NCBI GenBank assembly: GCA_018057765.1
Contig: JAGPDB010000003.1
Coordinates: 1-64,000 of the forward strand
Source of the DNA: Acidimicrobiia bacterium
Lineage (GTDB): Bacteria; Actinomycetota; Acidimicrobiia; IMCC26256; JAGPDB01
Length of the DNA stretch: 64,000 nucleotides
Direction: 5' to 3'
Positions 11,844 to 59,542 of this stretch are shown one piece after another. The notes below the pieces were generated by a model. It was given only the letters and a program-made list of their open reading frames with translations, ran no database searches and was not told where the DNA came from. The stretch's first letter is position 1. The number at the start of each line of letters is the position of its first letter. The position numbers and the translations under genes are program-made.

Positions 11844-12515
11844 ATGGATAAATTCGAGTTGAAAATACCTTATACCGGTGAACAAATTTCGACGTTTAAA
11901 ACTATTAGCGATATGGGATCGTTAGTTGATTCAAACTCTGAAACTTTTAACCTAATTTCTGATGAAGAAATGAATTTTTTTAAGGTTGTGACTCTTGGTT
12001 TTTATAGATTAAATATGAACGGTACATGTTTATTGATAGATAAAGATTTTGATAATTTAATTACTATTTTTAATATAACTTCAAATGATAAACGTGGAAA
12101 AGGAAAACTGGATTCCACTATTCGTATATCCTTAAAAGGCGAAGATGATAAATACATATATTGTGATTGTGAGCTCACAAGAAAAGGCTTTATTAAACGA
12201 CTAGATGTAGATTTAGAAAAGATATTCTCACCAATATTAAGTGAAACAATTGAAAAAGCATTACAAAACTACGTTGAACCGTTAAGTTCAAAAAACTTTA
12301 TCTATGAACCACTTGTTTCTCCATCAGAAGTTGGGATGGATTCAAATACTGTAGAAAGTCTAGATGTAGAATCACTTACAAGTCTTGTTTCAAGTGGAAA
12401 TATAAGAGAAGCACAAGCATTTTCAATACCTCTTTGGGTAAAAATATTACAATTACCTGCAAATATAATTCTTTCCCCTATACGTATAACACGTAAGTTC
12501 TTATTTGATATATAG
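11844..12515 (+). CDS. Unknown protein, possibly a CoxG-like SRPBCC fold
   Basis: A 223-residue protein that I do not firmly recognise. The first 140 residues alternate predicted strands and end in a long helix. The central part (NDKRGKGKLDSTIRISLKG followed by a second strand pair) resembles the rhythm of CoxG-type SRPBCC lipid-binding domains. This is a pattern impression only. After a Ser/Glu-rich linker, the last 30 residues (PLWVKILQLPANIILSPIR) look amphipathic and could touch the membrane. It sits between yebC and ruvC and likely has its own leaderless promoter. Confidence 0.7.
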   Translation: MDKFELKIPYTGEQISTFKTISDMGSLVDSNSETFNLISDEEMNFFKVVTLGFYRLNMNGTCLLIDKDFDNLITIFNITSNDKRGKGKLDSTIRISLKGEDDKYIYCDCELTRKGFIKRLDVDLEKIFSPILSETIEKALQNYVEPLSSKNFIYEPLVSPSEVGMDSNTVESLDVESLTSLVSSGNIREAQAFSIPLWVKILQLPANIILSPIRITRKFLFDI

Positions 12516-15373: not shown

Positions 15374-17160
15374 GTAATGCAATACCAACATGGGTCTATA
15401 CGTTTATTACTGTCGCTTTAATAGGTGCTGTAGTATATTCTTCGTTTAAAACATCTGGCGGAATAAAAAAACCCGTCCAATTATTCGTTCTAACAACTGT
15501 AACAGTATGTTATGTTTTCTCTCTAACTTTTATTAAAGATGTAAAACCACAGTTGGGTCTAGATTTGCAAGGTGGGGTCAGTGTTACTTTGCTAGCTAAA
15601 GGCAATCCTAATGCTAAAAATATCGATGTAGCAGTGAGTATTATTCGTGAACGAGTCGATGGTTTAGGTGTAGCTGAAGCAGAAGTGTACCCTGAAGGTA
15701 AAAATATAATTGTGGATCTTCCTGGATTAAAAGATGCTAAACGCGCGCAAGAAACAGTTGGTCAAACTGCAAAATTGTATTTTCGTGAGGTTGCAGAAAA
15801 TAACTATAATTTTCAAAGTGACGGAATTGATCCCCAAGTACAAGAGGTATTGACTCAAATTGCGGTTACTAATCAAGATAAGACAAAGACTTCTAATCAA
15901 GATAAGACAAAGACTTCTAAGTCTAAGTCTGATAAATCGACGACTACTCCAACTACATCAACAAGTGTTCCATCGTCAGAACCACAAGCAGGCAAAGCAG
16001 GAAAACACGTAACGTTAGAAACAACTGCTACAACCATTCCTGAAGCGACCACAACCACAACCACAACACCTACAACTACACAAACAACTATTTCCACTTT
16101 ACAAGTACAATGTGGAGGAAAAAATCCTACTACTGTATCTTTGACCGGCGACTTATCAACATTTACAACACGTGAGAATGATAAGCCTGAAAATGCGATT
16201 ATAGGAAAAGATAAAATAACAGGATTACCAAAATTGTTATGTCCAGCAGTGTTAGGTGGAGATATTGTCTCCGATTCATATAAAAGTGTGGATAGTACTG
16301 GTAAGATATCTACTGCTGTAAAGCTTAAGAGTAAAAGTTCAAAACAATTTACAGAAAAAATTGGAATACCTCTAAGTGATAAAGCAGTTGCAATTGTACT
16401 AGATGGAATAATTGTTTCAGATCCAGTTATAAATCCTGATCTAGCAAATGGATTATCTAATGATACAATCGAAATATCTTTCGGTAGTGCAAAAAATGTT
16501 AGTGATGAAGCAGAGAATTTAGCACAGGTACTAAAATTTGGTGCTCTTCCAGTTGAACTCGAACAACAAACAGCTTCAAAAATTTCGCCAACTCTTGGTA
16601 CTGACCAACTAAATTCAGGTTTAGTAGCAGGAGGTATAGGGTTATTACTAGTTATTTTATATATGTTCTTCTACTATCGTATTTTATCGCTTGTTGTATT
16701 TGGCGGAATCTTATTCTCAGGTATGACAACATATGCACTAATTTCATGGTTAGGTAGCACTCAAGGTTTATCTCTAACACTAGCCGGAATCGTAGGTCTT
16801 ATTATCTCATTAGGTGTTACTGTCGATTCTTATGTGGTCTATTTTGAAAAGCTTAAAGATGAAGTTAGGTATGGAAGAAGTGTGCGTTCATCACTTGATA
16901 GTGGTTTTAAAGCTGCATTTAAAACCATTTTAGCTGCAGACCTAATATCACTATTTGGTGCTATAACACTTTTTTATCTAGCAGCAGGTTCAGTACGTGG
17001 ATTCGCTTTTTTCTTAGGTGTATCAACTGTATTAGACCTAATCTTTTCTGTTTGCTTCATGCATCCACTTGTAAAGATATTGGCGCTAAGTCCGAAGCTA
17101 ATAACAAACCGTTTTATCGGGTTTACTGTTGCATTAGACAATAAAGATATTAAAGCCTAA
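15370..17160 (+). CDS. secD: Protein translocase subunit SecD
   Basis: SecD (596 residues) uses the proton motive force to help late export through SecYEG. A membrane segment near 35-55 precedes the periplasmic P1 domain with LGLDLQGGVSVTL. The C-terminal five-helix bundle contains GLIISLGVTVDSYVVYFE. The P1 region is interrupted by a Thr/Ser/Lys/Pro-rich stretch at about 168-243, including long Thr runs and a perfect duplication of NQDKTKTS. Low-complexity P1 linkers are known in actinobacterial SecD, but this one is long. secF follows 17 bp later. Confidence 0.96.
   Translation: MSNAIPTWVYTFITVALIGAVVYSSFKTSGGIKKPVQLFVLTTVTVCYVFSLTFIKDVKPQLGLDLQGGVSVTLLAKGNPNAKNIDVAVSIIRERVDGLGVAEAEVYPEGKNIIVDLPGLKDAKRAQETVGQTAKLYFREVAENNYNFQSDGIDPQVQEVLTQIAVTNQDKTKTSNQDKTKTSKSKSDKSTTTPTTSTSVPSSEPQAGKAGKHVTLETTATTIPEATTTTTTTPTTTQTTISTLQVQCGGKNPTTVSLTGDLSTFTTRENDKPENAIIGKDKITGLPKLLCPAVLGGDIVSDSYKSVDSTGKISTAVKLKSKSSKQFTEKIGIPLSDKAVAIVLDGIIVSDPVINPDLANGLSNDTIEISFGSAKNVSDEAENLAQVLKFGALPVELEQQTASKISPTLGTDQLNSGLVAGGIGLLLVILYMFFYYRILSLVVFGGILFSGMTTYALISWLGSTQGLSLTLAGIVGLIISLGVTVDSYVVYFEKLKDEVRYGRSVRSSLDSGFKAAFKTILAADLISLFGAITLFYLAAGSVRGFAFFLGVSTVLDLIFSVCFMHPLVKILALSPKLITNRFIGFTVALDNKDIKA
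15871..15918 (+). repeat. Tandem 24-bp duplication inside secD
   Basis: Two identical 24-bp units (15871-15894 and 15895-15918) encode NQDKTKTS twice, in frame. They lie at the start of the low-complexity linker. The identity at DNA level suggests a recent slippage event. Confidence 0.9.
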
Positions 17161-38515: not shown

Positions 38516-40156
38516 ATGGAAACTCAAACTGATATTGTTCAGTTAGAAACTATGATAAGTGACTTTGAATCGCTTATAGGTGTTAAGAAAATACACAAAA
38601 TTAGTAACCCACAATTAGATAAAATTTTTGATCTTGCAGACGAAATGTTAGCCGATGACCTTCAAGCATCTAAATTATTTATTGAGCTATTTGGTTTGGA
38701 CAGCAGTGGTTTTGAAACTAGCCAATGGTATAAAAAATTCCAGTCCGTCTGGTTAGAAAATGTAAAAGTTATATATAGCGCTTTTAAAAGATTTGAAAAG
38801 GACATTCCAGAATCTACTGATATAAATAAAATGTTCTTAATTTATATATACAGTGAATATAAAGATTTACTTAATCTATTAAGAATGAATTTACCTGAAA
38901 GTAAACTTTCAAGTTTATACAACCGGCTACTTCTTAGAATTTCATCTGAAGAAATCTCTTCAATATTTAATGAATATTCAGAATTTCATTTTATACAACT
39001 AAGAACTGCGATTATAAAAAGAGTTAATCCCCGAGAATTTCTAGAAAGTTATTCACATACATATGAGCTACTGATGGAAAAGTATTTCCTTAAAGGTGTT
39101 GCCCTTCATGGTTTAGTTTCTAAGTCAGTTATCAAGAATATGATTATATTTAGTGCTGATCCTGTTGGTGAGCTTGAAGCTAAGTGTACTATATTTGATT
39201 CTTTAGTGGATAAATATCTTGATGTTGACGATGTGCTTAGGCATCCTTTTGCTAATTTGACTGTGATTAAATCTTTGGTTTTGAGAAATGCGGATCCTGA
39301 AGGTGTTTTGTTGTCTAAGTTTGAGACTTTTGATTATTTGGTTTCTAAGTATTTTGATATTGATGATGCCGCAAAGCATCCGCTAATTAGCATAGGTGTT
39401 ATTAGGTTTTTGGTTTTGAGAAGTGCTGATCCTGAAAGGGATTTGTTGGCTAAGTTTGAGACTTTTGATTATTTGGTTTCTAAGTATTTTGATATTGATG
39501 ATGTTCATCCGTTTACTAATATGACGGTTCTTAAATTTTTGGTTTTGAGAAGTGCTGACCCTGAAGGTGATTTGTTGGCAAAAATCAAAGTGTATAATGA
39601 TCTAGTCAAAGTGTTTCCTGATGATTCTTATCTCGGTGCAATTAAAATTTCTGCATTGAACCAGAACATTAGTCCAAGTATATTTAGAATATATGTAGAT
39701 CGCGCATTAAAACTAAAAGAACATACCGGCTATTCCATGAAATTGTGTTTATACCAAAGTGTTAGAATCCCATTATCTGATGATTTTGATGTATTTATAA
39801 AAAAAGCGATACCTCCGATAGAAAAATATATCAAATTCCTACAGGTAGTACACCCAATATCGTTAGACAAAACATACAGTAATTCTGATTTAGGTTTATA
39901 TGGTTTCTTACCTGATCCTGGAAACGATTTTTCAAGTGATGCTAAAGCCCAAATTGAAGTATTGATCAAAGATGAAATAATTTCACCAAAAGAATTAGAA
40001 GCATTATATTTATATTTTATTGACGATAATTTTGAAGATGCCGCAAATATTTTAGAATGTGAAATTCAAGAATTGGATAGTGCCTTGAAAATTATCCTAG
40101 AAAGGATTAAGACTCTGTCTGCAGAGCCATCGGATACTTACTTAACTCTTGCTTAG
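38516..40156 (+). CDS. Unknown helical tandem-repeat protein with HTH-like C-terminus
   Basis: I do not recognise a family for this 546-residue protein. It is almost wholly predicted alpha-helical. Between about 165 and 370 it holds five copies of a 43-45-residue unit with the pattern ADPEG-LL-KFETFDYLVSKYFDIDD followed by HP-x-VIK-LVLR. Anchor residues are at 179, 223, 268, 313 and 356. Units 3 and 4 share a 53-nt identical stretch. Residues about 486-535 (SPKELEALYLYFIDDN, then AANILECEIQELDSAL) resemble sigma-factor region 4 or a LuxR-type helix-turn-helix. There is no signal peptide. No mycobacterial counterpart lies at this position. Solenoid-type protein binding is a reasonable guess, no more. 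Confidence 0.75.
   Translation: METQTDIVQLETMISDFESLIGVKKIHKISNPQLDKIFDLADEMLADDLQASKLFIELFGLDSSGFETSQWYKKFQSVWLENVKVIYSAFKRFEKDIPESTDINKMFLIYIYSEYKDLLNLLRMNLPESKLSSLYNRLLLRISSEEISSIFNEYSEFHFIQLRTAIIKRVNPREFLESYSHTYELLMEKYFLKGVALHGLVSKSVIKNMIIFSADPVGELEAKCTIFDSLVDKYLDVDDVLRHPFANLTVIKSLVLRNADPEGVLLSKFETFDYLVSKYFDIDDAAKHPLISIGVIRFLVLRSADPERDLLAKFETFDYLVSKYFDIDDVHPFTNMTVLKFLVLRSADPEGDLLAKIKVYNDLVKVFPDDSYLGAIKISALNQNISPSIFRIYVDRALKLKEHTGYSMKLCLYQSVRIPLSDDFDVFIKKAIPPIEKYIKFLQVVHPISLDKTYSNSDLGLYGFLPDPGNDFSSDAKAQIEVLIKDEIISPKELEALYLYFIDDNFEDAANILECEIQELDSALKIILERIKTLSAEPSDTYLTLA
39316..39503 (+). repeat. 53-nt direct repeat pair within the repeat protein
   Basis: The 53 nt at 39316-39368 recur identically at 39451-39503, a period of 135 nt (45 codons). 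More diverged copies lie before and after. Identity at silent positions implies recent duplication or gene conversion. Confidence 0.9.
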
Positions 40157-40194: not shown

Positions 40195-42306
40195 TTAACT
40201 AGTTTTCAAATTCCGGATAAAAAAACTAACATCATCAATTGCTAATTTCTTGATCACATCTTCTTTTGCCGGCATATGAGTTGTGCCATCAATAGGGTCA
40301 AATTCAACGTCTACACCAAATGATTCAAGATGGTTTAGTAGTTGTAAAGAGTTTTCGAAAAGCACATTGTCGTCTGATCTTCCATGCACTAAACGAATCT
40401 TAGAATTTTTATCAAAAGTTTTATTTAGTAAAGACGACTTATCGTAATAATCTTTTTGAAAATTTGGATTTCCTAAGTATTTTTCTGTGTAATGGGTGTC
40501 ATAAAGTCTCCAATCAGCAACTTCTGCACCAATAATTGCAGCTTTAAATAAATCTGGACATTTACTAATACATCCAGCAGCTAGTGAGCCACCAAATGAC
40601 CAACCTGTAATCCCTATATTATTTTTATCAATATCAATATTGTCTTTTATAATTTGTTCAACAACTTTTACTTGGTCATTGACAGGCGGATCAAAAAAAT
40701 TGCCAATATTCTCATCTTCTTTACTAACGGAATTACTAGGAGTTCCGGCACCATCTATTGCTACAACAATAAATCCTAATGCTGCTAAATATTGAGAAAA
40801 TATCTGACGGGACTTATTCTTGATTGCAAACCGAAGATAATGTCCGCCACTATAAGAAGAAGGACCTCCATAAGAATGAACAATTAACGGTAACGGTCCA
40901 GGTATATTTTTAGGTTTTATGATTAATCCATGAATATTATTGAAATAGGTTTTATATTCACAGGAAACATCGAAATTAAAGTCTATTGCACTATTATCTT
41001 GAAAAATATTAAACATTGAAGCATTGTCAACAATTATTTTTGTCTCGGGAAACACGCTGGAATCGCTCCTGGATGTAATAACGTAATCATCATGTTTGCT
41101 CGATAAAGCTAGAGTTGTTGGTGCTCCTGACTTAACAATAATTTCTGTTAAATCGTGTTCTAATATTTCTCTAGCGTTTAAAGATCTGCTTTCTAGGCGT
41201 TTTAGGACTAAATCAAAACCATTTTCTAAAACTTCAAAATAAAGATATGACTTTGAGAATCCCAGAACTGAAACCAAACCAGCAGTACCAATAATTGGAC
41301 TTTCATCAATTGCTAATACACGTTTATCTTGAGTGGGATCAATCATATAATGTAACCAAGAGTTATTTCTTAGTTCTTTTGGTATATGCGAAAATATGTC
41401 AAATTGCCTTTTTTCGTCGTACTCATACTGTTTCTTATTGGTTTCGATCTTATATATAGTTACATAGTTTTGTTCTCGATTTTGAGATATTGCTAACGGA
41501 CTATTTTCATCATCAAATATTACGTTAATAAGGTATTCCTCATTAAAATCAAAAAACTCATCATCTTGTCCAAGCTCACAAATATTAATTATCAAGGTCG
41601 GATTTAAAGACCCTGCAAATGGATATTTATATTCTTTGGCTTCGTCATCTAATGATGGTTGTATCGATGTAGTCGTTAATTCATCTTGATTATGTCCAAC
41701 ACTTACAAAAGTTTTCGAATCTGGTGAAAACCAGCAAGATACATATCTTGACATTTCCTCCATCGAAATAAAATCTGAGATACCCCAAACAAAATTGTCT
41801 TTTTTTATAGTGTGAATTATCTTATTGTCTTCATATGAATATATTTTTACGGCGTTATTTTCGCAGATAGCTAAATATCTCCCGTTAGGTGACAGAAGAC
41901 TTAAAGAGATATTTTCGAAAGTCGAAATATAGCTATTAGAGATTAAGGAATATACATAAGTCGAACCATTAATAGAAAATACAATTAAAGATTCCTCATC
42001 GTTGTATTGAAATGAAGATATTCCACTACTGGTATCACGCAATCTTTCTTTTAGAGCTTTTACTTCTTGGCTTTCCTCTTTATCTGAAGAAAACTTATCA
42101 TCATTTGGATTAATTAATAATTTTTCAACAATATTATTCTCATTTTTAGCTATCCAAATTCCAAGGGAACCTTCATCATTGCAGGAACGTAAAAAGATAA
42201 CGTCTCTATATTTAGTAATAGCGAAGCCTCGCGGGATACCTTTACTAAGACGTAAGGATTTAGCATATAATTCAGGAAATTCGTCGAGCTTAGTAAATTC
42301 TGTCAT
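40195..42306 (-). CDS. S9 family prolyl oligopeptidase-like serine peptidase
   Basis: A 703-residue protein, the only complete minus-strand gene in the window. The N-terminal 420 residues look like the beta-propeller of S9 peptidases. The C-terminal alpha/beta-hydrolase domain has the nucleophile motif GWSFGGSLAAG, the acid in HGRSDDNVLFENS and the His in DGTTHMP. HSYGGPSSYSGG matches the oxyanion region. No signal peptide is seen, so it is probably cytoplasmic and cleaves short proline-containing peptides. It converges on the repeat protein and diverges from the M24 peptidase gene 61 bp away. TAAAAT lies 8 nt before its ATG. Confidence 0.9.
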   Translation of the reverse strand: MTEFTKLDEFPELYAKSLRLSKGIPRGFAITKYRDVIFLRSCNDEGSLGIWIAKNENNIVEKLLINPNDDKFSSDKEESQEVKALKERLRDTSSGISSFQYNDEESLIVFSINGSTYVYSLISNSYISTFENISLSLLSPNGRYLAICENNAVKIYSYEDNKIIHTIKKDNFVWGISDFISMEEMSRYVSCWFSPDSKTFVSVGHNQDELTTTSIQPSLDDEAKEYKYPFAGSLNPTLIINICELGQDDEFFDFNEEYLINVIFDDENSPLAISQNREQNYVTIYKIETNKKQYEYDEKRQFDIFSHIPKELRNNSWLHYMIDPTQDKRVLAIDESPIIGTAGLVSVLGFSKSYLYFEVLENGFDLVLKRLESRSLNAREILEHDLTEIIVKSGAPTTLALSSKHDDYVITSRSDSSVFPETKIIVDNASMFNIFQDNSAIDFNFDVSCEYKTYFNNIHGLIIKPKNIPGPLPLIVHSYGGPSSYSGGHYLRFAIKNKSRQIFSQYLAALGFIVVAIDGAGTPSNSVSKEDENIGNFFDPPVNDQVKVVEQIIKDNIDIDKNNIGITGWSFGGSLAAGCISKCPDLFKAAIIGAEVADWRLYDTHYTEKYLGNPNFQKDYYDKSSLLNKTFDKNSKIRLVHGRSDDNVLFENSLQLLNHLESFGVDVEFDPIDGTTHMPAKEDVIKKLAIDDVSFFIRNLKTS

Positions 42307-42314
42307 AGGAAAGT

Positions 42315-42320
42315 ATTTTA
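42315..42320 (-). promoter_or_regulatory. Candidate leaderless -10 box for the S9 peptidase
   Basis: On the minus strand TAAAAT ends 8 nt before the ATG at 42306. A short CCT-containing stretch, not a ribosome-binding site, lies between. Confidence 0.3.
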
Positions 42321-42367
42321 AGCTATATTCTTCTAAGATATATGTAAATTAAATATAAAGGTGAGAC

Positions 42368-43555
42368 ATGAGCGATTTAAAGAACCTTGGAGCAATTCAA
42401 TCTGAACTAACAAAAAGTAATGTTGATGGATGGATTGTGCCCGATTATCGCGGTTCAAACGAGATATTCAGTGTTTTAGTAGATGGTAGTTTCCATTTGA
42501 CGCGAAGAGCAATATTATTTATACCTACTAATGGTGAACCTATAGCTTTTGTTCACATAATAGATAAACCGCATTTTGTGCCAGCCGAAAAGAACTTTGT
42601 AGTTGAATACTATAGAACGTGGAAAGAGCTTCTGGATTGGTACAATAGAATTTTATCCCCATTGTCTTGCGTTGTAACAGAATATTCTCAAAATTGCGCT
42701 ATACCAACAATGTCCCAAGTCGATGGGGGTACTTTAGATGTTATTCGCAAATATGTAAAAGTCGAATCGAGTGCTGACATTTTCCAAAAAACAGTAAGTG
42801 CATGGACACTCGAAGACTATGAAGGACACGTTAAATCTGTTGAAGAAACAGTAAAATGTTTACGATCAGCTTTAGAGTTTGTAAAAACTTCTTTAACTAA
42901 TGGAACTGAAATTACTGAAATGGATGTTCAAAATTATATAGTTAAGGAATTTGTGAGTCATGGTATAGAAACATATAGTCCGCCTATTGTAGCTGTCTCA
43001 CCAAATAATGGAAATCCACATTATGATCCCGACACTCCTAATAATACAGTTATAACAAAAGATAATTTACTTCTAATTGACTTATGGGCAATTTTAAAAG
43101 AAGGCAAGAGTGTATATTCAGATATAACTTATATGTCTTATTTTGGTGATAAAATACCTGCAAAGATTATTGAAGTTTTTAATGTTGTAAGAGATGCTAG
43201 AAATGCTGCCATTAATTTTGTTAAAGAAAATATCTCTTCAGGTATTCAAGGCTATCAAGTCGATGATGTGTCGCGTAAAGTGATTTCTGATGCAGGCTAT
43301 GGTGACTATTTTTTGCATCGTACAGGTCATTCAATGGGGCCAGGTAATTTTTTACATGCTCGCGGTGTCAATATCGACAATTTTGAAACACACGATGAAC
43401 GTGAGGTTACACCAATGATCGGTTTTTCTATTGAGCCGGGTATCTACCTGCCAGAATTTGGTATTCGTTCAGAAATTGATATGTTCATACACCCAGATCT
43501 TGGCCCAATTGTTACAACACCATTACAAGAAGAGATTGAACATTTTGTAATTTAG
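42368..43555 (+). CDS. pepQ: M24 family Xaa-Pro peptidase
   Basis: A 395-residue aminopeptidase P/prolidase-like enzyme with a good ribosome-binding site (AAGGTGAG). The N-terminal creatinase-like domain spans about 1-160. The pita-bread domain carries five metal ligands: Asp in LLIDLWAI, Asp in VYSDITYM, His in GHSMGPGNF, and the two Glu in SIEPGIYLPEFGIRSEID. Mycobacteria also have an M24 peptidase between aroQ and efp. With the divergent S9 peptidase it could finish degradation of Pro-containing peptides. Confidence 0.9.
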   Translation: MSDLKNLGAIQSELTKSNVDGWIVPDYRGSNEIFSVLVDGSFHLTRRAILFIPTNGEPIAFVHIIDKPHFVPAEKNFVVEYYRTWKELLDWYNRILSPLSCVVTEYSQNCAIPTMSQVDGGTLDVIRKYVKVESSADIFQKTVSAWTLEDYEGHVKSVEETVKCLRSALEFVKTSLTNGTEITEMDVQNYIVKEFVSHGIETYSPPIVAVSPNNGNPHYDPDTPNNTVITKDNLLLIDLWAILKEGKSVYSDITYMSYFGDKIPAKIIEVFNVVRDARNAAINFVKENISSGIQGYQVDDVSRKVISDAGYGDYFLHRTGHSMGPGNFLHARGVNIDNFETHDEREVTPMIGFSIEPGIYLPEFGIRSEIDMFIHPDLGPIVTTPLQEEIEHFVI

Positions 43556-43635
43556 AATCATAATCATTTCTATAGTAGAAAAGTACGATTGAACAATTGA
43601 TCTCTCTGTATTGAAGATTATTATAAAAAGTAAGA

Positions 43636-43641
43636 TATAAT
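43636..43641 (+). promoter_or_regulatory. Candidate leaderless promoter for the SNF2 helicase
   Basis: TATAAT ends 8 nt before the GTG start at 43650. A -35-like TTGAAG lies at 43611-43616 with a 19-bp spacer. No ribosome-binding site is present. Confidence 0.5.
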
Positions 43642-43649
43642 GCCAGGCT

Positions 43650-46600
43650 GTGCCTAAATTTCCATTACATAACTCCACAAAAATACAATCTACAACTTTT
43701 ATACCAAAAGGTTTACAAGACGAAGCTTTAATTAGATTTTCTAGTCATCAGAGCTTCAATAGGGGTAAATCCTATGTAAAAAATGGTTTTGTTAAAAGTT
43801 TCATATGGAATCCTAAAGAAAAATGTCTTGATGGATCTGTTTTTGGAAGCGGTGAAAGTAAATATCAATGTTCAATAGAATTTAGTTTTAATGACGGAGA
43901 TATAAAAATTGGCAATTCAAGCTGTGAATGTCCAGTTGGGTACCAATGTAAACATTGTGTTTCAATTTTATTAGCGGGCAGGAAACTAATAACAAAAATG
44001 AATATGGCATTATTAGACGAAGATATAGATCTTGATGAAATTATGCAAGATACAACTTCTGATGAATGGAAATCTGAAATTGATTCTTTGCTTAATTCAA
44101 CACAAAACATAAATAGAGTTGCATTTAGAAAAGTCGGATTATTATTTGAGGTACTAGGAACAAAACGACGTACCAATCAATCTTTCTCATTCGATAGCAC
44201 TCCCGCAATAATGAGAAATCAATTAGCTGTAAGAATAGTTTATCTATCTGATACAAATCGTTGGAAAACAACTGAATTTAATTGGAAGTCAATAAGTACT
44301 AGAAATATAGTTGCAAGAGAAATAAATCCGAAACATTTTGAATGGCTTAATGACTTTAAAAATATTTGTATTGATACAGACAGGGAATATGTATATGATG
44401 ACACGGTCTACATTCTTTTAGACCAAGCTGGTTCATCACAAATATTTAATTTATTAGATGATGCGAGAAAATTAGGTATTGGTTTATATACAAAAATTAA
44501 TGCATCAAAATTAAATGAGATAAATCTTGATAAAGATAAAGCTCACGTGTCAATTAACGTAACAACAAAAAGTGATGATTCATTAGAAGTTGAAACTGTA
44601 TTAAAACATAATGATTATATTGTTAATACTTCTGGACTTGGCTTTCTGGGAAAAAATGCAAATACTGTTTATACTTATGATATAAATGACAAAATTTCTC
44701 ATATAGAAATATATAAGCTTGATACGAATGTTGATAGTGGTTTACAAGAAAATATTTTAAATAAGAAAAGTATCAAAATTCCGAAAAGTGAAAAGAAATC
44801 ATTTGAAGAGACTTATCTAAACAAAATACAAAGTCGCTTTCAAGCAATTTCGACGGATAATTCAATTGAAATCCCCAAAGCTCCATTAGCGACTTTGATA
44901 TTAGACCTTAAGCCTTCACAAAATAATGATGTATTTCATATCAAATTATTTTGGTCTTATGGAAATGCTAGCAATGGCCATAAGTACACTTTAAATTCTC
45001 ATAATGATGACAGTATTAGAAATTTTGTCTTTGAAAAAGAACTATTGTCAGAGCTCTCAGTTGCTGTATCTTCGATTGAAGAATTCTTTATAACAAATAA
45101 TTTCGGAGATTTGTTACTAAAGGAAACTGTGGTACTTACAGGTTCAAATCTGATCAAATTTAGCAATATTATTATGCCAGAATTAGCAAACATGGATGGA
45201 ATCAAAGTTGAGACAAAAAACGAAATAATAAATTACGAAGAATCCTATGATCTTCCAAAAATAGAAATCGGTACTTCTGAAAATCTAGATGGAAACCAAG
45301 ATTGGTTTAATCTAGACGTCGATGTAAAAGTAGGAGAGCACAGCGTTGATTTCCAGGATCTTTTTCGTGCATTGGCTCAAAACGACGAATATATGATTTT
45401 AGAGAATGGTACTTATTTTTCTTTAGATAATGAAATTTTATCCAGTTTAAAAAAATTAATAGATGAAGCAAAAGATTTACAAGAGAAAAAATCTGATACT
45501 TTACAGATAAGTCGGTATCATGCATCTTTTTGGGAAGAATTAAAAGAGCTTGGTATCGTGCGCGACCAAACTAATGCATGGCAGAAATCAATTGATGGAT
45601 TGTTGAATTTAGAAAGGATTGAACATGTAGATCCACCAAGTGAATTAAATGCGAAATTACGACCCTATCAACTGGAAGGATACCAATGGTTGTGCTTTTT
45701 ATACGAAAATAAACTAGGTGCAATACTTGGCGATGATATGGGTCTTGGAAAAACTATTCAAGCTCTAGCGATGATAGTTAAAATATTTCAGGATACTAAG
45801 AAAGCAGATCGAAAACCGTTTCTGGTAGTGGCGCCTACAAGTGTTGCTACTAACTGGTTAAGTGAGGCTAAAAAATTTGCACCAAAACTTAATACTGTTT
45901 TAATAACTCAAACAGCAAAAAAATCAGATAAGAAACTTATCGATGAAATTAAGAATGCGGATATAGTTATAACTTCATATACGCTTTTGAGAATTGATTT
46001 TGAATCATATTCTGATACAAAAACTATTAATTGGTCTGGAATGTTTTTAGATGAGGCTCAATTCATAAAAAACCATCAATCGAAAAGTTATCAATGCGTA
46101 CGAAAAATTAGTGTACCTTTTAAACTCGCTATGACAGGTACCCCAATTGAGAATAACCTAATGGAATTGTGGTCATTATTTTCAATAACTTCTCCTGGAC
46201 TTTTTGGTGGTCCAAAGAAGTTCACTGATATGTATAGAAAGCCAATTGAGAAAGACCAAGATAAAGAAAAATTAGATCAAATAAGGCGCAGGGCTAGACC
46301 TCTACTGCTTCGTCGTACTAAAGAACAAGTAGTAAAAGAGCTACCACCAAAAATTGAACAAGTACTGGAGCTTCAACTCAATGCCGATCATAGGAAAGTA
46401 TACGATCTTGTTCTTGCTCGCGAAAGACAAAAGGTCCTTGGCCTTATAGAAGATGTTGATCGTAACCAATTCACTATATTAAAATCTTTAACTACACTTC
46501 GTATGTTGAGTCTAGATCCTTCATTAGTGGATAATGAAAAGTATTCTCATGTTTCTTCCACAAAACTCGATTCATTAATAGAGCAAATAAATGAAGTTGT

Positions 46601-47060
46601 AGGAGAAAACCATAGAGCATTAATATTTTCTCAATTTACATCGTTCTTAGCGAAAGTAAAGAATCGTTTAGATGAAGAAAAGATTGAATATTGTTATCTT
46701 GATGGTAAAACAAAAAATCGAGGCGACGTTATAGATAAATTCAAAACTTCAAAAACGCCACTATTTCTTATTAGCTTAAAATCTGGTGGATTTGGATTGA
46801 ATCTGACGGAAGCTGATTATTGTTTCTTATTGGATCCTTGGTGGAATCCAGCTGCAGAATCACAAGCAATTGATAGAACTCATAGAATTGGTCAGAAGAA
46901 GCAGGTTATGGTTTATCGATTGGTAGCTAAAGATACTATTGAAGAAAAAGTTATGTTATTAAAGGAACGTAAAGCTAAATTATTTAAAAGTGTTTTAGAT
47001 GATGGCGAAATATTCTCATCTAAATTAACCGCTGAGGATGTGAAATCCCTATTTGAATAA
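43650..47060 (+). CDS. SWIM zinc-finger SNF2-family helicase
   Basis: A 1136-residue protein starting at GTG. The SWIM zinc finger is CxCx5CxH at Cys92, Cys94, Cys100 and His102. A long poorly conserved middle region (about 110-650) precedes the SNF2 motor. Motor motifs are Walker A GDDMGLGKTIQ (about 692-703), MFLDEAQFIKN, MTGTPIENNLMELWS, then ISLKSGGFGLNLTEADY and the arginine finger region AIDRTHRIGQ. Bacterial SNF2 proteins are double-stranded-DNA translocases, some tied to RNA polymerase recycling or DNA repair. The substrate here is unknown. It stands between pepQ and efp, which are adjacent in mycobacteria, so it is an insertion. Confidence 0.93.
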   Translation: MPKFPLHNSTKIQSTTFIPKGLQDEALIRFSSHQSFNRGKSYVKNGFVKSFIWNPKEKCLDGSVFGSGESKYQCSIEFSFNDGDIKIGNSSCECPVGYQCKHCVSILLAGRKLITKMNMALLDEDIDLDEIMQDTTSDEWKSEIDSLLNSTQNINRVAFRKVGLLFEVLGTKRRTNQSFSFDSTPAIMRNQLAVRIVYLSDTNRWKTTEFNWKSISTRNIVAREINPKHFEWLNDFKNICIDTDREYVYDDTVYILLDQAGSSQIFNLLDDARKLGIGLYTKINASKLNEINLDKDKAHVSINVTTKSDDSLEVETVLKHNDYIVNTSGLGFLGKNANTVYTYDINDKISHIEIYKLDTNVDSGLQENILNKKSIKIPKSEKKSFEETYLNKIQSRFQAISTDNSIEIPKAPLATLILDLKPSQNNDVFHIKLFWSYGNASNGHKYTLNSHNDDSIRNFVFEKELLSELSVAVSSIEEFFITNNFGDLLLKETVVLTGSNLIKFSNIIMPELANMDGIKVETKNEIINYEESYDLPKIEIGTSENLDGNQDWFNLDVDVKVGEHSVDFQDLFRALAQNDEYMILENGTYFSLDNEILSSLKKLIDEAKDLQEKKSDTLQISRYHASFWEELKELGIVRDQTNAWQKSIDGLLNLERIEHVDPPSELNAKLRPYQLEGYQWLCFLYENKLGAILGDDMGLGKTIQALAMIVKIFQDTKKADRKPFLVVAPTSVATNWLSEAKKFAPKLNTVLITQTAKKSDKKLIDEIKNADIVITSYTLLRIDFESYSDTKTINWSGMFLDEAQFIKNHQSKSYQCVRKISVPFKLAMTGTPIENNLMELWSLFSITSPGLFGGPKKFTDMYRKPIEKDQDKEKLDQIRRRARPLLLRRTKEQVVKELPPKIEQVLELQLNADHRKVYDLVLARERQKVLGLIEDVDRNQFTILKSLTTLRMLSLDPSLVDNEKYSHVSSTKLDSLIEQINEVVGENHRALIFSQFTSFLAKVKNRLDEEKIEYCYLDGKTKNRGDVIDKFKTSKTPLFLISLKSGGFGLNLTEADYCFLLDPWWNPAAESQAIDRTHRIGQKKQVMVYRLVAKDTIEEKVMLLKERKAKLFKSVLDDGEIFSSKLTAEDVKSLFE

Positions 47061-58723: not shown

Positions 58724-59542
58724 ATGGATAATTCAATAGAAACTTTTATAAATCGTCCACCTGATAATACGTATAATGATGGACATATTATATCTTGGGA
58801 TTTTATAACCCCAAGAGGGAACCTTGCCGGTTTCGGATCAGTGGATAATACTAATGTACTTCTAAAAGTTGTTGTTAGTGATTCCGGAGAGATAGTTTCA
58901 CTCAGTGGCGATAATCCATTGATATTAACTTTTACGTATGGTTCTGGAAATATCGAAACGCAAATGGTTGTATTAACTCATCAAGGCGATGCGGTACATA
59001 TTCCTGGTGGAGCTACTTTAACAATCGAAACCGAGGCCATAGGTGCTGAATATATTGTTGAATACCCAAATACACCGGTCAATCCTTCGCTCCCTCTAAT
59101 TGAACATGATTCAAATGTTACAAGTACATTAGCCCCAGGTGAGGTGATGTTAGAAGAAATACCGTTGTTCCCTGAGGATAAGCCGTCTTATCGAATATTT
59201 GAAAGTCCAACTATCGATTTTAATGGACCAAATCGTGTTTATTTAGAAGTATTTCCAGATAAAACATTGGATGTTTTAAAATTATCCGCTGCTAATCTCT
59301 TAACCATTGATATTATCTCTGGTAGGGGTAATCTTTATCTCTTCAATGAAGAAACGAAAAAATTGCGTGTAATCGCATTGGAGCAAGGAGTATCTGCTCA
59401 AGTAGATGTTGGAGAGATATACTGCTTAGAAGCAAGTGATGAGGGTCTTGTTGTTCGTAATACATGTCCTGGGATCGATGGGTTACATGTACAACTTGTG
59501 GCAAATCCCGAGCAATTAGTTTCACAATGCATACTAATTTAG
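58724..59542 (+). CDS. Unknown beta-rich protein, possibly double-cupin
   Basis: A 272-residue protein with no family I can name. It is predicted almost entirely beta. Two segments have a cupin-like rhythm: GDAVHIPGGATLTIE near 90-104 and GVSAQVDVGEIYCLEAS near 223-239, suggesting two related barrels. Metal-binding His clusters typical of enzymatic cupins are not obvious, so a structural or binding role is as likely. No signal peptide. It lies alone between the pyr operon and mihF with its own candidate promoter. Confidence 0.7.
   Translation: MDNSIETFINRPPDNTYNDGHIISWDFITPRGNLAGFGSVDNTNVLLKVVVSDSGEIVSLSGDNPLILTFTYGSGNIETQMVVLTHQGDAVHIPGGATLTIETEAIGAEYIVEYPNTPVNPSLPLIEHDSNVTSTLAPGEVMLEEIPLFPEDKPSYRIFESPTIDFNGPNRVYLEVFPDKTLDVLKLSAANLLTIDIISGRGNLYLFNEETKKLRVIALEQGVSAQVDVGEIYCLEASDEGLVVRNTCPGIDGLHVQLVANPEQLVSQCILI

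Follow-up and report, generated by a model that had tools for sequence, protein, structure and literature searches.

An orphan gene in a lineage-specific stretch between aroQ and efp

The window analysed here, 64,000 nucleotides at the start of contig JAGPDB010000003.1 of an Acidimicrobiia bacterium, carries a gene of 546 codons directly after aroC, aroKB and aroQ (38516-40156, plus strand, ATG to TAG), whose codon-position composition is typical of the coding frames of this genome. Its neighbours in the accessory stretch that follows (40195-47060) encode, on the minus strand, an S9/DPP-IV-like peptidase and, on the plus strand, an M24 peptidase and an SNF2 helicase. Two congeners keep aroKB, aroQ, an M24 gene and efp without the 546-codon gene; their aroQ-efp stretch holds only the M24 gene, approximately 25% identical to the M24 peptidase found here, and the S9 and SNF2 genes are missing from it in both. 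Scans for promoters and terminators gave signals at chance level, and Rfam had no match across 37-48 kb.

Searches of the genome itself with the protein, with a profile of the repeat unit described below and with the DNA all returned this locus only, and no homologue was found in the two congeners, in 58 genomes of the same order or in 395 of the same class. Across 396 genomes of the phylum there were six weak matches (E 1e-4 to 0.07), all of them in proteins that inspection revealed to be unrelated, for example an LRR protein, a restriction-modification-like protein and a sugar isomerase-like protein. Scans of phage, plasmid, IMG/VR and GTDB contigs returned nothing, the pattern-based ones reaching close relatives only. 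The preliminary description of this DNA had raised the possibility of a distinct solenoid family and proposed looking for paralogues of varying repeat number; the idea of a family finds no support, as no such relative was found in the own genome, in the congeners, order, class and phylum or in the contig scans. Taken together, the lack of homologues and the comparison of the aroQ-efp stretch with the congeners identify the gene as an orphan in a lineage-specific stretch.

The 546-aa protein has a net charge of -25 and, with a peak 19-residue hydropathy of 1.23, no transmembrane-like segment. Two further ORFs of the window, at 11844-12515 and 58724-59542, are also without a Pfam match, in neighbourhoods that are otherwise conserved.

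The protein contains four secure tandem repeat units

Four tandem units of 45, 45, 45 and 43 residues occupy residues 195-372, all encoded on the plus strand: R1 (residues 195-239, 39098-39232, VALHGLVSKSVIKNMIIFSADPVGELEAKCTIFDSLVDKYLDVDD), R2 (residues 240-284, 39233-39367, VLRHPFANLTVIKSLVLRNADPEGVLLSKFETFDYLVSKYFDIDD), R3 (residues 285-329, 39368-39502) and R4 (residues 330-372, 39503-39631). The best ungapped self-alignment of the protein scores 259 at a lag of 45, as compared to a maximum of 46 in its shuffles, and a profile of R1-R4 gives 84-94 bits for each of the four units, which are also its training sequences. The repeat is also visible in the DNA, where TRF reports a tandem array with a period of 135 bp, 2.3 copies and 81% matches (39274-39579, plus strand). 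R4 matches over its first two-thirds; the pattern is gone after 'ADPEGDLLAK' (IKVYNDLVKVFPDD), and repeat-type DNA stops near 39580. Elsewhere in the window, a perfect 24-bp tandem repeat of 2.2 copies (15869-15920) lies in the QDKTKTSN linker of a secD-like gene.

Tandem repeats of 43-45 residues had been placed at 39050-39640 from the letters alone, and both the repeats and the coordinates are borne out by these measurements. Five units had been counted, of which the first, anchored at residue 179, is the possible degenerate unit R0 (residues ~150-194, 38963-39097, plus strand). It scores 4.1 bits on the unit profile, below the 4.8 attained by the top scorer among 500 shuffles of the N-terminal region; its ungapped matches of 45-49, at lags 89 and 134, lie barely at or above the shuffle maximum; it reads VNPRE where the ADPEG motif is expected; and its codon usage is that of the genome. 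Since this first unit is borderline, the earlier count was right in substance, but the secure units number four instead of five.

Divergence between units is mosaic

Differences between R2 and R3 are distributed abruptly along the unit, with 21 of 42 nt differing in the first 14 codons, 6 of 45 in the next segment and 0 of 48 in the last (Fisher p = 0.0004 for codons 1-14 against 15-29), such that only 6 of the 93 nt of the core differ (39410-39502 in R3). The R2/R3 duplication is recent. Read from the sequence, such a step is as expected of segment-wise gene conversion or unequal crossover, and we propose that the array would have gained units and kept them similar through unequal crossing-over or gene conversion among its 135-bp DNA copies. 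It follows from the same pattern that the variable part of the unit would be a loop and the start of its first predicted helix (helix A).

Codon usage of the array differs from that of its own gene

Within residues 195-357 we counted 20 A-ending codons against 56.9 expected from 51 window genes, a z of -7.3 that is inflated because the units, copied from one founder, are not independent. The flanks of the gene on either side are normal in this respect (z +0.15 and +0.32), and the minimum among 3453 windows of equal length in 51 other genes is -4.16. The codon usage of the array is therefore unlike that of the gene that carries it, a feature which, like the abrupt step between R2 and R3, the preliminary description did not mention. 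A segment search made without reference to the repeats delimited an A-poor third-position segment of composition unlike the rest of the gene (codons 184-354, 39065-39577, plus strand), which nearly coincides with the array, and R1 taken alone, although well diverged from R2 (dS about 1), has 7 A-ending codons against 15.3 expected.

These observations speak for a foreign origin, in which a multi-unit cassette, evolved under a different codon bias, would have been acquired, inserted in an ordinary local gene and then extended by tandem duplication. We consider this origin possible but rather doubtful: besides the inflation of z by copying of one founder, z falls as low as -3.96 in single windows of 45 codons elsewhere, the variable first part of R3 appears native, and A is involved in 10 of the 21 third-position differences between R1 and R2 where about 70% would be expected, a mild deficit only. 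Neither a donor nor a second copy emerged from the own-genome, phage, plasmid, IMG/VR and GTDB scans. That the array might be a coding cassette able to transfer and to homogenise itself, its 93-nt core constant and its 42-nt face variable, acquired from a source of different codon bias and inserted in a host gene, appears to us highly improbable.

The repeat unit has no match among known families

Pfam returned nothing above cut-off, whether queried with the complete protein, with portions of it, with individual units or with the unit consensus; NCBIfam and PADLOC yielded zero families, PHROGs gave no match better than E 0.059, and matches to PDB sequences were at chance level. No unit exceeded the curated cut-off of TPR, Sel1, HEAT, ankyrin or any other Pfam repeat, the sub-threshold matches being at chance level only. 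The suggestion that the unit belongs to none of the known repeat families thus survives, with nothing above chance in Pfam, NCBIfam, PHROGs, PADLOC or PDB, and 'distinct repeat' stands in the sense of unmatched by these libraries. What is new here, as far as such comparisons reach, is a repeat unit without a known match in an orphan gene.

Divergence from a known family is an unlikely explanation, whether the unit were a variant HEAT, ankyrin or AAA-lid hairpin or the C terminus (residues 445-535) a decayed sigma-70 region 3.2/4. The likeness to ankyrin is one of pattern, in that 'TVIKSLVLRNADPEG' recalls by eye the stretch 'xEVVKLLLxxGADPN', whereas the array has a period of 45 residues instead of 33 and no Pfam match. 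The AAA_lid family PF25568 reached E 0.0015 with the array alone; its 18.9 bits fall below the cut-off of 27, and the match covers a stretch of 21 positions. We rejected a BCS1-like AAA lid on this score and because the same short stretch, counted repeatedly, inflates the result: in a control, the tripled consensus drew several unrelated families at the E-value of the AAA lid, and the single unit drew none.

For the C terminus, 'PISLDKTYSNSDLGLYGFLPDPGNDFS' recalls 'PVSLESRVGEEDDSMLSDFVVDPNDFS' of the RpoD of the same genome by eye (BLASTP single-pair E 0.058), and the sigma factor family PHROG_351 matches at E 0.059. This resemblance to sigma-70 region 3.2/4 is confined to by-eye pattern and motif order, and profile and shuffle tests give it no support: a profile built from 34 sigma factors of the own genome and class places the 546-aa protein among its own shuffles, and hhalign of the C terminus against sigma gives a probability of 1% and a score of 15.3, beaten by 6 of 150 shuffles. 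Assignment to sigma-70 region 3.2/4 was rejected on these grounds. Among other sigma-related loci of this genome, L009 (G000:C13:30558-30704) is a 127-residue open frame whose C terminus resembles sigma region 4 (Pfam Sigma70_r4, 25.1 bits) and which leaves no space for region 2, and L003 and L004 (G000:C16 and C31) are near-identical sigma-factor genes with both frames cut by contig ends, a pair that would reflect a recent duplication or else a split in the assembly.

PARCEL repeats offer a further comparison, being 25-residue motifs with dyad-symmetric coding DNA that are dispersed within genomes (PMC2996958). They share with the array tandem repetition within unassigned ORFs, similarity at DNA level and possible transfer of coding repeats; the array differs in its 45-residue unit, its single locus and its inverted repeats, which are only short and imperfect. 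Without strong inverted repeats, and with a unit of this length, it was not counted as a PARCEL repeat.

Predicted fold and selection on the reading frame

AlphaFold modelled the full protein alone with a mean pLDDT of 36.9, and three units, supplied with a register-shifted internal alignment to their neighbouring units, with a mean pLDDT of 44.0. Both low-confidence models place two main helices in each unit with the ADPE turn between them, and Foldseek, queried with these models, found no structural match. A solenoid had been suggested for the array beforehand; two helices per unit recur in both predictions, but since both are of low confidence an alpha-solenoid is plausible but unproven, and the packing of the helices tentative. 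The parts of the protein on either side, residues 1-194 and 367-546, received no fold assignment. HEAT and armadillo-type repeats are built on two helices, and a 43-45-residue unit with two predicted helices is within their range; the array unit differs from them in that no Pfam model matched it and no structural match was found.

In the organisation that we propose, each unit would consist of helix A ('VIKxLVLR'), the 'ADPE' turn, helix B ('LLAKFETFDYLVSKYF') and a loop with 'HP'. The hairpins would most likely stack into a short alpha-solenoid or a helical bundle with another macromolecule as its binding partner, and the likely contact face would be the fast-varying loop together with the beginning of helix A (unit residues 1-14).

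Between units dN is below dS in all pairs (R2/R3 0.16/0.33, R1/R2 0.50/1.01), each value being drawn from 43 codons, with dS near saturation in most pairs. These values fit a frame that is translated and subject to some constraint, which we favour over slippage in a neutral frame. That the gene is young or decaying with no settled function, its repeats produced by replication slippage, is distinctly unlikely, for although it has no homologues, lies in an accessory stretch and underwent the R2/R3 duplication recently, its 546 codons form an open frame whose codon-position composition, the array apart, is normal, and every length change seen between units is of whole codons.

Our best explanation is of a lineage-restricted orphan with a soluble, acidic, helical product, and taken as a whole, with its binding role as a stack of hairpins, we give it roughly an even chance of being right. 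The orphan repeat protein appears to be evolving fast and is probably a binding scaffold, and a young, recombining binding protein is most likely, in preference to a new kind of system. The locus offers a clean case of a repeat array with codon usage different from that of its carrier gene, together with segment-wise homogenisation. A transferable cassette, if that were the true origin, would represent a modular way to make variable binding faces in streamlined bacteria. If relatives were discovered, the difference in codon use could serve to date the array and trace its source, and the 14 variable residues would become a testable binding face.
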